The notes under the pieces were generated by a model. The model was not told the origin of the DNA and did not search any database. It saw only the letters and a list, made by a program, of their open reading frames with translations. A stretch of DNA of 64,000 nt from Acidobacteriaceae bacterium (GTDB lineage Bacteria > Acidobacteriota > Terriglobia > Terriglobales > Acidobacteriaceae), in the NCBI GenBank assembly GCA_003132405.1, contig PKXQ01000118.1, forward strand, positions 1-64,000. Reading direction: 5' to 3'. The position numbers and the translations under genes are program-made. Shown here piece by piece: positions 39,876-43,790 of this stretch; position 1 is the stretch's first letter, and each line of letters begins with the position of its first letter.

Positions 39876-39877
39876 CT

Positions 39878-39901
39878 GAATTAGGCACTTGACAAACCCA
39901 T
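39878..39901. repeat. left terminal inverted repeat (core 24 nt)
   Basis: GAATTAGGCACTTGACAAACCCAT; 22 of 24 identical to the reverse complement of 43765-43788. Confidence 0.92.
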
Positions 39902-39917
39902 ACGTTTGAGCTAATGT
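39889..39917 (+). promoter_or_regulatory. promoter with -35 inside the left TIR
   Basis: TTGACA (39889-39894), 17-nt spacer, TAATGT (39912-39917); transposase ATG at 39924. Confidence 0.7.
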
Positions 39918-39923
39918 TGATGC

Positions 39924-40910
39924 ATGGCGAACGATGAACTCAACCTAATCGCACTGGCTCAACACTTTAGCGATGATGACAAGGCGCGGGAATTTGTCGA
40001 AAAGCTACGTTGGCCCGATGGCCCTGTATGTCCGCACTGTGGCGAGGTCAATAACGCCTACAAACTGGAGCCAAAGCCTGCTAAGGAAAACGGGAAGGGC
40101 AAGCACGTCCGCAAGGGTGTGTGGAAGTGTGCCGGATGCCGTGAGCAGTTCACCGTTACCGTGGGAACGATCTTCGAGGATTCCCACATCCCCCTGAGCA
40201 AATGGTTGCTTGCCTATCACCTGCTCTGCGCCAGCAAGAAGGGCATGAGCGCCCACCAGCTTCACAGAATGCTCAAGGTCACGTACAGGAGTGCATGGTT
40301 CATGGCTCACAGGATTCGTTACACGATGAGCCAAGAACCGTTGTCATCGAAACTCACAGGGATTATCGAGGTTGACGAAACTTACGTTGGCGGCAAGCTG
40401 CGCATTGGAACGACCAAGCCGCATGATAACTACCATCGCAAGCGTATCGGTCCAGTAGCGAATAAGGCCGCCGTCGTATCCGTTTTGCAGCGTGGCGGTC
40501 GCGTCCAATCTCGCCATGTCGAGCACGTCACTGCGGATAATCTGAGAACGATGGTTGACACGATGGTGGATGAAGATGCTCACGTGATGACGGACAGTTC
40601 CACCGTACTCAAGAAGGCATTTCTCGGAGAGCGCACGCACTCTCAGGTGAACCATAGAGCGAAAGAATACGTCCGATACGAGGACGGCCTGTGCATCACC
40701 ACGAACACGATTGAAGGCTATTTTGCTACTTTGAAACGCGGGATCAACGGTGTATACCATCATGTTGGGAAGCAGCACCTTCACCGCTACTTGAGCGAGT
40801 TTGATTTCCGGTATAACGCTCGCAAGGTTAGTGATGGCGACCGCACTTTGTTGGCGCTCAATGGCACCGGCGGAAAGCGGTTAATGCTGCGGGACTCAAA
40901 GCCGAACTAG
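39924..40910 (+). CDS. IS1595 family transposase (ISXO2-like), N-terminal zinc ribbon
   Basis: CPHC...WKCAGC zinc ribbon; IEVDETYVGGK, ISXO2-like DDE-type core; TTNTIEGYFATLKRGINGVYHHV. Confidence 0.93.
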   Translation: MANDELNLIALAQHFSDDDKAREFVEKLRWPDGPVCPHCGEVNNAYKLEPKPAKENGKGKHVRKGVWKCAGCREQFTVTVGTIFEDSHIPLSKWLLAYHLLCASKKGMSAHQLHRMLKVTYRSAWFMAHRIRYTMSQEPLSSKLTGIIEVDETYVGGKLRIGTTKPHDNYHRKRIGPVANKAAVVSVLQRGGRVQSRHVEHVTADNLRTMVDTMVDEDAHVMTDSSTVLKKAFLGERTHSQVNHRAKEYVRYEDGLCITTNTIEGYFATLKRGINGVYHHVGKQHLHRYLSEFDFRYNARKVSDGDRTLLALNGTGGKRLMLRDSKPN

Positions 40911-40949
40911 GAGAGAAGAAATCGAATTTCAACATCGCTAAAGCTGCAA

Positions 40950-40973
40950 AAGGTCAGCTGGCAGGCTGACCTT
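40950..40973. other. hairpin after transposase gene
   Basis: AAGGTCAGC-TGGCAG-GCTGACCTT perfect 9-bp stem; no obvious U-tract. Confidence 0.6.
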
Positions 40974-41076
40974 CGCGGCAGTTCTAAATTCGTCGGCGGC
41001 AACCGCAACGTTCTCCCGGAACGTCCCAGTATAAGTGTATCCACTGGCAGCACCAATATACCACGGAGGCGCTGCC

Positions 41077-41826
41077 ATGCCTGAAAAGCGCACAATCATA
41101 TTTAAGATTCCTGAGGTTAGGCCGGAAGAACTGCCCGCCCGTCTTCTCGCCGATTATGTCCGAGACCTCGCGGTTCTTTTCGGAGACGAATCCGTAGCAC
41201 TCGTTAACATATCCGAAAACAGTACGAATCTCGCGTTCTCTATGCCACTCGAAGCGGCCCTGACTGCGCGTGAAAAACTGCAGAGCGCCGCAAGTAATGA
41301 GGGCACGCCAGAGGAGAATCGCGCTTTTCAGAATGTGGATACGAGGCTAAGAGATTACGAGCAAACGGGAGTTATCCTTGACGACCAGAAAGCAAAAATC
41401 ATTGAGTTCCCCGGCAGACTCCGGGAGGTGCTCGCTAAGTTTCCGGCTGTAACACAAAATGCAGTTGTAGAGGGAACTCCGATCCGCGTTGGATCGGATA
41501 GCCCGAAGGAAAACGTTCCGGTTCACTTGCAGGATGGAAACATAATTCACTTCTGCACGGCCTCCCGTGACAAAGCCGCTCAAATCGCGGAGTTTGGAAT
41601 GTTTAAGGCCCTTGTGCGCGTCACCGGAGAGGCTAGATGGAATCGAGGATTCGACGGGGAATGGTATCGGACAAGATTTTATGTCCAGGATTGTGATGTT
41701 CTTGACGATAGCGAATCTTTGCTGGATACGGTTGCCAAGCTCCGCGCCGTCCCCGGAAACGGCTGGCGTGACATTCCTGACCCACTGGCGGCTCTGACAA
41801 GAATTAGACACGGAGACGCGGAGTAA
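41077..41826 (+). CDS. uncharacterised passenger protein (249 aa), likely partner of the PIN-domain protein
   Basis: ATG at 41077 with ggaggc upstream; 3-nt gap to the PIN gene. C-terminal pattern ...FYVQDCDVLDDSESLLDTVAKLRAVPGNGW recalls conserved hypotheticals next to PIN genes (from memory). Confidence 0.7.
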   Translation: MPEKRTIIFKIPEVRPEELPARLLADYVRDLAVLFGDESVALVNISENSTNLAFSMPLEAALTAREKLQSAASNEGTPEENRAFQNVDTRLRDYEQTGVILDDQKAKIIEFPGRLREVLAKFPAVTQNAVVEGTPIRVGSDSPKENVPVHLQDGNIIHFCTASRDKAAQIAEFGMFKALVRVTGEARWNRGFDGEWYRTRFYVQDCDVLDDSESLLDTVAKLRAVPGNGWRDIPDPLAALTRIRHGDAE

Positions 41827-41829
41827 ACA

Positions 41830-42315: not shown

Positions 42316-42367
42316 CTGCAACGCGGGATTCCTCCATTCGAGGAAGAGAGATTGTCTGGAGACGAGA

Positions 42368-42493
42368 ATGAAGAAAATAACGAACTCAAAACCAATCCCG
42401 CACATTCCGCTCCCGTTGAAGGAAGTGATGAGGGACGTGCTAAAGATCAAGCCACCAGCGAAAACATCAAGCCCAAAGAAAACTAAGGATTGA
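42368..42493 (+). CDS. small basic protein (41 aa)
   Basis: MKKITNSKPIPHIPLPLKEVMRDVLKIKPPAKTSSPKKTKD; IPLP-x-EV-x-LLKxKP-type motif resembles small ORFs seen in many genomes (from memory). Other frames are also open here. Confidence 0.5.
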   Translation: MKKITNSKPIPHIPLPLKEVMRDVLKIKPPAKTSSPKKTKD

Positions 42494-43385
42494 GCCATTC
42501 CTTATCAGGTCGCGTGATAAGACGCGCAGCAAAATAAGCTTGGTCCATGTCCAAGATGGTTTTGATTTTGTAGCACTCATTCGGATCATCACGCTCTACG
42601 AGGAAACATGCGACATCGCGACCGTTTGAGGAATGAAACGGAAGAAGCAATTGCATCCTCTGTTCCTCAACGTAATAGACTGGGATCGCAGTTTTGTAAT
42701 TGCGCCTGATCTTTGGAATTAGGTTCTCTATGGCCCCCCGCAGATAGTTCCGCACCGATTCATCGCTCGCATCTTGAGGGAAGCCCGATCTGTCTTTTGC
42801 CCGTTCGAACATGTGGTCGAAAACATCAGTGTCGATATGGTAGTTGATGTTAAAAACGTAATCGCGGCTGTCATCGGAATACCATGCCAATCGCGGCAAC
42901 CGCGTCCCAAAGTGATGCCGATAGGCGTCTTCGCGAGAGGTCACCGTACCTCGATAGACCCAATCCGCCGCTGGTTTTGCTTGCTGAGCACCCGTAAACG
43001 GTTGATACTTTTGAAAGACGCAGAATAGATCTGCCGAATGCTTATCCTGGAGTCCAGTGTTGAAGCTGAACCAATGGTTATCATCCGAAAGCACAAAGTA
43101 CTTTCCGGGGTCAGCCATTTCCAAATCCCGCAGCCGGATGAATGTATATCGCAGGTAGTTCCGCAATTTTGGGGGTTTATCGTTGTACTTGTTCTGGAAG
43201 CGCGGAAGCGTGAAGTCCCAAGACGGCGCTCCCTCAAACGTCTTTGCAGCTATCTTTTTGAACGGAGCAGAAAAATCAAGACTTTGAGTCAGAGGGTCTT
43301 TGTCGGGATGGAAGTGCGCAAACACCTCGCCGACGGGTTCATCTTTGTAAAGCTTGAAAAGGGTATGATACTTCGCCACGTCCAT
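42483..43385 (-). CDS. DUF3825-domain-like protein (~300 aa)
   Basis: LRNYLRYTFIRLRD, NTGLQD, AIPVYYVEEQRMQLLLPF, ILDMDQAYFAARLITRPDKEWL match my memory of DUF3825. ATG at 43385 preceded by ggggga; supplied ORF starts at TTG 43391. Confidence 0.72.
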   Translation of the reverse strand: MDVAKYHTLFKLYKDEPVGEVFAHFHPDKDPLTQSLDFSAPFKKIAAKTFEGAPSWDFTLPRFQNKYNDKPPKLRNYLRYTFIRLRDLEMADPGKYFVLSDDNHWFSFNTGLQDKHSADLFCVFQKYQPFTGAQQAKPAADWVYRGTVTSREDAYRHHFGTRLPRLAWYSDDSRDYVFNINYHIDTDVFDHMFERAKDRSGFPQDASDESVRNYLRGAIENLIPKIRRNYKTAIPVYYVEEQRMQLLLPFHSSNGRDVACFLVERDDPNECYKIKTILDMDQAYFAARLITRPDKEWLNP

Positions 43386-43407
43386 AAACAATCCCCCAAG
43401 AAACTAA

Positions 43408-43437
43408 GACCCCCGCTCTTCGCGGGGGTTCTCTTTT
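43408..43437 (+). terminator. strong hairpin upstream of DUF3825 gene, terminator-like on + strand
   Basis: ACCCCCGC-TCTTC-GCGGGGGT stem followed by TCTCTTTT on + strand; U-poorer TCTTAGTTTCTT on - strand. Confidence 0.65.
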
Positions 43438-43626
43438 GGAATCATCTCTTGTAGGTAGAAAAAATCTGGGGTGTTTTTTGTATGGATCATCCGTTCGCAA
43501 GGAACGGTTCTCTTTCCGCGAGCTTCTGCGGGCGTATCAAAAATAGCACCAACTGCAATCTGAGATCAAGCCCTAAAATCCTGTATTCGTTACTGTCCGA
43601 CCCACAACCAGTAGTACCCTAATTGT

Positions 43627-43740
43627 TGGTGCCGGGAGCGGGAATTGCACCCGCACGGGACGAATCCCAGCGGCTTCCTCACGGCTCTCAATGAGAGGCG
43701 TCAGGAAGGCCGCCGCGTCTGCTAGTTTCGCCATCCCGGC
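43627..43740 (-). tRNA. tRNA-Leu-like gene with anticodon arm replaced by a long hairpin (114 nt with CCA)
   Basis: GCCGGGA-T-GGCGAAACTAGCAGACGC-G-[44-nt hairpin]-T-GGGA-TTCG-TCCC-GT-GCGGG-TGCAATT-CCCGC-TCCCGGC-A-CCA. Acceptor, D, variable and T stems intact; no normal 7-nt anticodon loop. Confidence 0.8.
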
Positions 43741-43764
43741 ATATTTAAATCGTCTCACAATGTG

Positions 43765-43788
43765 ATGGGTTTGTCAAGGGCATAATTC
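43765..43788. repeat. right terminal inverted repeat (core 24 nt)
   Basis: ATGGGTTTGTCAAGGGCATAATTC; reverse complement matches the left TIR at 22 of 24 positions. Confidence 0.92.
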
Positions 43789-43790
43789 CT

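Follow-up and report, generated by a model that had tools for sequence, protein, structure and literature searches.

A complete IS1595-family transposon with toxin-antitoxin-like cargo and an apparently non-decoding, transposon-borne tRNA in an Acidobacteriaceae bacterium

Transposons of the Tn3 family are known to include toxin-antitoxin pairs (PMC7157771). Allo-tRNAs are defined by an 8/4 or 9/3 geometry of the acceptor and T stems (PMC7609411), and phage tRNAs have been proposed to evade tRNA nucleases through changes in their anticodon loops (PMC10264068). Here, we analyzed a stretch of 64,000 nucleotides from an Acidobacteriaceae bacterium (GenBank assembly GCA_003132405.1, contig PKXQ01000118.1, positions 1 to 64,000, forward strand), called the window below, and in particular the mobile element that it carries at 39876-43790. 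That this element is an entire IS1595 transposon, that its cargo is toxin-antitoxin-like, and that it holds a non-decoding member of a tRNA family carried by transposons are all well supported. The explanation that we favor, with a probability of about 0.5, is that of an intact transposon with three separable cargo parts, in which toxin-antitoxin-like maintenance cargo would be joined by a non-decoding tRNA that serves as nuclease bait or antidote.

The element is 3915 bp long, with boundaries set by comparison with 77 related elements. The consensus end of these is CGGAATTATnnACTTGACAAACCCA, and the window ends match it. A previous reading made from the letters alone (the sequence-only reading) had proposed that the element is a complete transposon of the IS1595 type and carries passenger genes, and the ends, the 8-bp duplication, and the transposase family bear this out. 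The inverted repeats at 39878-39901 and 43765-43788 are present as it described them, imperfect, 24 nt long, and 92% complementary. The flanking direct repeat is real and is a target duplication of exactly 8 bp, AAAAATAT; in the 9-bp form given earlier, TAAAAATAT, the last base of the element is counted as well. The ISXO2-like transposase placed at the left end has a DDE domain with an N-terminal zinc ribbon and matched PF12762 (9.5e-31) and PF12760 (3.9e-13) in Pfam and NF033547 (8.8e-52, above its cut-off) in NCBIfam. The four further open reading frames (ORFs) that had been counted are ORF2, which has no Pfam family, a PIN gene, a DUF3825 gene, and a small basic ORF of 41 aa. A count of copies in the source genome gave one full copy. 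The empty target site of the element would read ...CATATCGTAAAAATATTGATAAC...

To compare it with its relatives, we drew transposase homologues from Acidobacteria, plasmids, and viral contigs and fetched their flanks. The resulting set comprised 78 elements with defined ends, window included (221 kb); some near-duplicates may persist in it, and the source genomes are mostly metagenome-assembled. An exact 8-bp target duplication was present in nearly all of them. tRNA-like genes occurred in 20 of the 78, a share that is inflated because part of the set was gathered by tRNA search; the association of tRNA and transposase is independent of that share. Sixteen of these genes combined a Leu-type body with a UGG anticodon, one had UGC (L228), and three (window, L049, and L053) had interrupted or extended anticodon arms. 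The first 63 elements held nine tRNA-like genes in 180 kb, none of them canonical, while the ordinary tRNAs found in the 423 kb of their flanks were of varied type and lay in phage contigs. The Leu-type tRNA(UGG) pattern matched in 8 of 299 genomes of the order, in six of the eight within about 2 kb of an IS1595 transposase, and is therefore not a general genome feature. In all seven pattern-found loci with definable ends, the tRNA lay between the ends. A literature search on transposon-encoded tRNAs found nothing relevant.

Matches to the same pattern also occurred in viral contigs (L159-L163, L165, L167, L169-L172, and L176-L179) whose examined stretch contained no IS1595 transposase. Two members of a related transposase group, L227 (G603) and L228 (G029), have a Leu-type tRNA whose anticodon is UGC (Ala); it has A73 and lacks a G3:U70 pair. 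The tRNA of L228 sits between the element ends. These examples suggest that the transposon tRNA family extends beyond UGG.

Among 31 Leu-type tRNA(UGG) genes, positions 18 and 55 covary, with G18 and T55 in 20 genes, A18 and G55 in 11 (one of which has an unusual T loop), and no mixed case. The anticodon stems were paired in 170 of 180 cells, by many pair types, and there were 15 different fully paired acceptor stems; all of these counts ignore kinship. We present the coupling of 18 and 55 and the preserved stem pairing as sequence-based evidence that the transposon tRNAs are under selection.

In the window, the tRNA-like gene lies 24 nt inside the right inverted repeat. The sequence-only reading had called it tRNA-Leu-like, and it is a real gene, complete in acceptor stem (7 bp), D arm, variable arm, T arm (5 bp), A73, and CCA, with a fold z-score of -5.1. 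It is missed by ARAGORN at default settings and scores 23 bits in Rfam, as tRNA-Sec and under the gathering score, because a 34-nt hairpin stands in the place of the 7-nt anticodon loop. Removal of 27 nt gives the loop CTTGGAA, as in L129, with the point of insertion between positions 34 and 35; among shuffled inserts, 0.45% permitted such a reading. The insert is a well-paired hairpin that extends the anticodon stem. Since it splits the anticodon between U and GG, the RNA should not decode. Alternatively, intron-like removal or cutting of the insert from the transcript could yield a working tRNA(UGG) only under some condition, such as an active nuclease or ligase. Exact excision does restore CTTGGAA, at the group I intron site of bacterial tRNA-Leu(UAA), and the tRNA-like gene of L049, which from its sequence would be a tRNA-Ile(GAU), is likewise split within the anticodon (between positions 35 and 36). 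We regard this as very improbable, since 27 nt is far below the size of a self-splicing intron, no bulge-helix-bulge motif is present, and the element has no splicing endonuclease or ligase gene.

The window gene also retains marks of its family. Its D region is identical to that of L060 at 19 of 20 positions versus 17 of 20 for the host tRNA-Leu(CAA), its T arm is identical to those of several transposon tRNAs at 15 of 17 positions versus 12 of 17 for the same host tRNA, and it carries A18 and G55. With IS1595 ends, a Leu-type body, the coupled 18/55 state, and, once the insert is removed, a YTTGGR loop, the gene can be assigned by sequence comparison to the transposon-borne Leu-type tRNA family. 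That a host tRNA-Leu was captured by chance beside the transposon end is the least probable of the explanations considered here: the gene does equal host tRNA-Leu(CAA) throughout its acceptor stem and in most of its D arm, but it lies inside the ends, such genes recur within related elements, and the A18/G55 state and UGG loop are common to transposon tRNAs, unlike the CAA loop of the host. An allo-tRNA identity was also considered and set aside, the acceptor/T geometry being 7/5.

The three interrupted or extended tRNA-like genes all occur in elements with a PIN gene, compared with none of the 16 intact tRNA(UGG) genes (Fisher p=0.03), and PIN and a tRNA-like gene stand together in these 3 of the 78 elements. 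The anticodon loops of L049 and L053 were interrupted independently and on different tRNA bodies. This co-occurrence, a correlation over few cases, fits a role against, or in resistance to, a tRNA nuclease. The window element and its relatives place odd tRNAs between defined transposon ends and, in some elements, beside RNase-type cargo.

A second link of the tRNAs to their elements was found in the codons of the transposases. In 13 elements with tRNA(UGG), CCA codons shared alignment columns 102 times, versus a mean of 32 and a maximum of 65 in 5,000 shuffles; in 17 such elements the value was 179, versus a mean of 60 and a maximum of 115 in 10,000 shuffles. Other Pro codons did not cluster by column in the 13 elements, nor did CCA in 52 elements without tRNA(UGG). 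For GCA, clustering was uninformative, because the two elements with tRNA(UGC) are 86% identical. The columns were picked on the first 13 elements, and a later clade sample was taken by transposase similarity alone. In this new sample, every Pro at columns 35 and 202 of the new tRNA-bearing elements was encoded by CCA (3/3 each), while the five tRNA-less elements, which branch separately at three points of the transposase tree, had CCG at column 35 (5/5) and CCG, CCC, or CCT at column 202 (5/5). Over all elements, Fisher p was 1e-4 and 4e-5 for columns 35 and 202, uncorrected for relatedness or column choice. Column profiles had first hinted that CCA is recoded to Ser; we rejected this, as the tRNA-less relatives have Pro codons at the two key columns. 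Inference from profiles on the residue at CCA sites favors Pro, and the relatives likewise suggest Pro there. The window transposase lacks the CCA signature, consistent with a loss of decoding by its tRNA.

From these results, we tentatively propose, at somewhat under even odds, that this transposon group encodes an odd tRNA together with CCA at fixed transposase positions, so that an active transposase would depend on, or be altered by, a private tRNA, and that in PIN elements the tRNA became a non-decoding mimic, as in the window. If functional, the codon link would give mobile elements a new means of controlling the transposase that they encode, and it can be tested by a few codon changes or by the loss of one small gene. 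We have not seen a link of mobile DNA to private translation parts described.

The ORF2-PIN pair is the second part of the cargo. The PIN protein (PF01850), confirmed as the sequence-only reading had named it, is a putative RNase with conserved acidic active-site residues in the alignment. ORF2 has no family match in Pfam, PADLOC, or NCBIfam. It occupies the antitoxin position directly upstream of PIN, and this pairing was conserved across the homologous loci examined. Homologues of the pair occur in L054, L056, and L085 and on plasmids of Methylobacterium, Sinorhizobium, Cupriavidus, and Pleomorphomonas, in each case without the other window genes; pairs of the ORF2 and PIN type without the remaining window cargo are present in about 12 further elements and on plasmids. 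In many relatives, a protein of about 250-330 aa follows the transposase and is itself followed directly by a PIN gene and sometimes then by the small basic ORF, whose conservation in other elements concerns the C-terminal part. A single family for every ORF2 type was backed only in part by profile comparison. The pair is best read as VapBC-like toxin-antitoxin cargo, with its toxicity predicted from sequence; full VapBC membership was not assigned, as ORF2, at 249 aa, has no known VapB-like DNA-binding domain in Pfam or NCBIfam. PADLOC gave no defense-system match for the window element.

The third part is DUF3825 with its leader. The protein, whose family assignment (PF12873, 2e-44) also upheld the sequence-only reading, has 486 detected homologues, and the best 120 of the 486 were all DUF3825 proteins. 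These homologues stand alone, for example on a plasmid of 3.1 kb from Enterobacter (L015). In close homologues, the region directly before the gene is short, rich in hairpins, and closed by a GC-rich or terminator-like hairpin (window, L009, L023, L024, L026, and L015), and its clearest form is that of L015, with a TTGACA promoter. The window leader has several hairpins and no clear tandem repeat; possible CACAGAA-type repeats were seen in L024 and L026. A different leader, with a shared hairpin motif, precedes DUF3825 in L010, L100, and L101; it consists of ACAGCT, a hairpin, GCCCGnnCGGGCAACAGT, and a long hairpin, and is a candidate RNA family attached to DUF3825. The L010 leader had no Rfam match.

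The model of the whole DUF3825 protein was confident (predicted local distance difference test, pLDDT, 88.6), and that of the C-terminal 123 residues had a pLDDT of 77. A Foldseek search with the whole protein gave no significant match, and the sequence had no credible match among solved structures. With the C-terminal model, the majority of the top 50 matches were RelE/HigB/YoeB-type toxins (best probability 0.97, E 0.038), which is suggestive of a RelE-like domain and falls short of proof. A literature search on DUF3825 found no paper in the library searched. For this widespread protein family, the leader provides a prediction that can be tested.

The sequence-only reading had put PIN, DUF3825, ORF2, and the tRNA-like RNA into one joint RNA-centered system. 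A putative RNase (PIN) and a tRNA-like RNA do lie between the same ends, and all the parts point to RNA biology; the single integrated module, in contrast, was not supported, as the parts are modular among the 78 elements. Listing what lies between the related ends showed that transposase with toxin-antitoxin-like cargo recurs and, separately, transposase with an odd tRNA. Each part occurs alone or in other company, and the trio of PIN, DUF3825, and tRNA-like gene was found in the window element only. DUF3825 was in none of the other elements tested for it, the last eight elements added not having been sequence-searched for it, and it stood without PIN or tRNA at every other locus examined. 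We consider a joint system very improbable. The narrower unit of DUF3825 and the tRNA-like gene was rejected too, since the neighbors of DUF3825 elsewhere include no tRNA-like gene.

Other elements have NYN, HicB-like, Cas2-like, HARE-HTH, or HD proteins as cargo instead. L053, L057, and L081 are IS1595 elements with Cas2-like small proteins as passengers (PF09827 in L053), possibly VapD-type RNases. A small coiled-coil protein is encoded in L060, L087, L093, L095, and L098, most of which also have tRNA(UGG), and in L087 and L095 it has a weak HARE-HTH match; it is a possible functional partner of the tRNA.

Under the favored explanation, the three cargo parts are the VapBC-like ORF2-PIN pair, DUF3825 behind its structured leader, and the tRNA-like gene close to the right end, on its inner side. 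Toxin-antitoxin-like maintenance of the element in the population would be the role of the PIN pair and probably also of DUF3825 together with its leader RNA. In intact relatives, the private tRNA would read chosen CCA codons of the transposase of its own element. In PIN-bearing elements, the tRNA may have been turned into an RNA that is non-decoding and still tRNA-folded, and this RNA may be a bait or antidote for a tRNA-cleaving nuclease, either the PIN protein of the element or a nuclease of a competitor; these last two steps are the least certain.

Several observations weigh against this explanation. A recognizable PIN gene is present in 15 of the 78 elements, and 12 of these 15 lack a tRNA-like gene; the PIN pair is therefore not dependent on one. 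The window arrangement was found in one copy only, and its hairpin is for that reason without covariation support. L057, L059, and L092, from the subfamily of the window itself, have CCA at two sites and no tRNA; the out-of-sample prediction that they carry one failed, and the codon link is therefore imperfect outside one clade. One of the CCA sites in this test, column 448, has a general A/T third-base bias. The RelE similarity of DUF3825 is at the level of the fold and under the usual significance. Finally, both window inverted repeats hold an inward-facing TTGACA, and the promoter scan reported nothing for these boxes, with weak -10 elements behind them.

The first two points, together with the absence of the CCA sites from the window transposase, also speak for a non-functional relic, that is, a transposon tRNA(UGG) that was broken by a small hairpin insertion and is drifting in an otherwise ordinary IS1595 element with toxin-antitoxin passengers. 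We judge this to be unlikely, though a real contender: the acceptor stem, T stem, and CCA are intact, the insert continues the anticodon stem as a paired hairpin, and the interruptions in L049 and L053 arose in PIN elements as well. Bait or antidote is thus ranked first, as the most likely function of the tRNA-like RNA, and relic second.

The features of the element are listed in Table 1. It occupies the gap (window 39746-39867 and 43799-44045) between an argJ-like gene (38529-39746, + strand) and a TonB-dependent-receptor-like gene (44045-46933, - strand), so no host gene is visibly broken.

Table 1. Positions of the transposon features within the window
Feature	Position	Strand	Remarks
Left target-site duplication, AAAAATAT	39868..39875	.	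Identical 8 bp at 43791-43798
Left terminal inverted repeat	39876..39901	.	TTGACA (-35-like) pointing inward to transposase
IS1595-family (ISXO2-like) DDE transposase, 328 aa	39924..40910	+	PF12762, PF12760, NF033547
ORF2, 249 aa, putative antitoxin partner of PIN protein	41077..41826	+	Homologues directly followed by PIN gene
PIN-domain putative RNase (VapC-like), 161 aa	41830..42315	+	PF01850 1.6e-7
Small basic ORF, 41 aa, MKKITNSKPIPHIPLPLKEVMRDVLKIKPPAKTSSPKKTKD	42368..42493	+	Kept in L046-L049 elements
DUF3825 protein, 302 aa, ATG at 43385	42483..43391	-	PF12873 2e-44
Terminator-like GC hairpin directly before DUF3825, ACCCCCGC-GAAGA-GCGGGGGT, then CTTAGTTTCT	43409..43429	-	Same position in L009, L023, L024, L026, L015
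Hairpin-rich leader RNA of DUF3825	43409..43535	-	Partly conserved in L009
tRNA-like gene, Leu-type (class II) body, A73 and CCA, A18/G55 elbow, long hairpin for anticodon loop	43627..43740	-	Fold and family comparison
27-nt hairpin insert splitting the anticodon, CTT-insert-GGAA	43679..43705	-	Insert-free loop CTTGGAA (UGG)
Right terminal inverted repeat	43765..43790	.	TTGACA pointing inward to tRNA-like gene
Right target-site duplication, AAAAATAT	43791..43798	.	Same 8 bp as left

The window element shares its transposase domains, end sequences, 8-bp duplication, and the placement of passengers after the transposase with other IS1595 (ISXO2-like) passenger transposons; toxin-antitoxin-like and unusual tRNA passengers are what we have not seen described for this family. 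Like the Tn3-family toxin-antitoxin transposons, it has a toxin-antitoxin pair next to the transposase, but its transposase belongs to another family, its antitoxin families are unnamed, and it has a tRNA-like gene in addition (PMC7157771). The DUF3825 locus has an architecture that resembles type III toxin-antitoxin loci (ToxIN, AbiQ, and TenpIN; PMC5086642), with a structured RNA, a terminator-like hairpin, and then a protein gene. It differs from them in that the window leader RNA has no clear tandem repeats and in being known from sequence alone; the predicted C-terminal fold resembles RelE/HigB rather than the ToxN-like (PemK/Kid-type) fold. We do not claim membership for it.

As with phage tRNAs, the window combines a mobile tRNA with an altered anticodon loop that occurs alongside tRNA-cleaving VapC/PIN nucleases (PMC10264068). 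The difference is the 27-nt hairpin in the window anticodon, with which the RNA could stand in for a cleaved tRNA only after processing. The allo-tRNAs and irregular tRNAs of Acidobacteria (Mukai 2017, reviewed in PMC7609411) are similar in being odd tRNAs of the same phylum. The transposon tRNAs differ from allo-tRNAs in that they have a canonical 7/5 geometry on a Leu-type body, mostly with UGG, that they lie between IS1595 ends, and that in one clade they track the CCA codons of the transposase.

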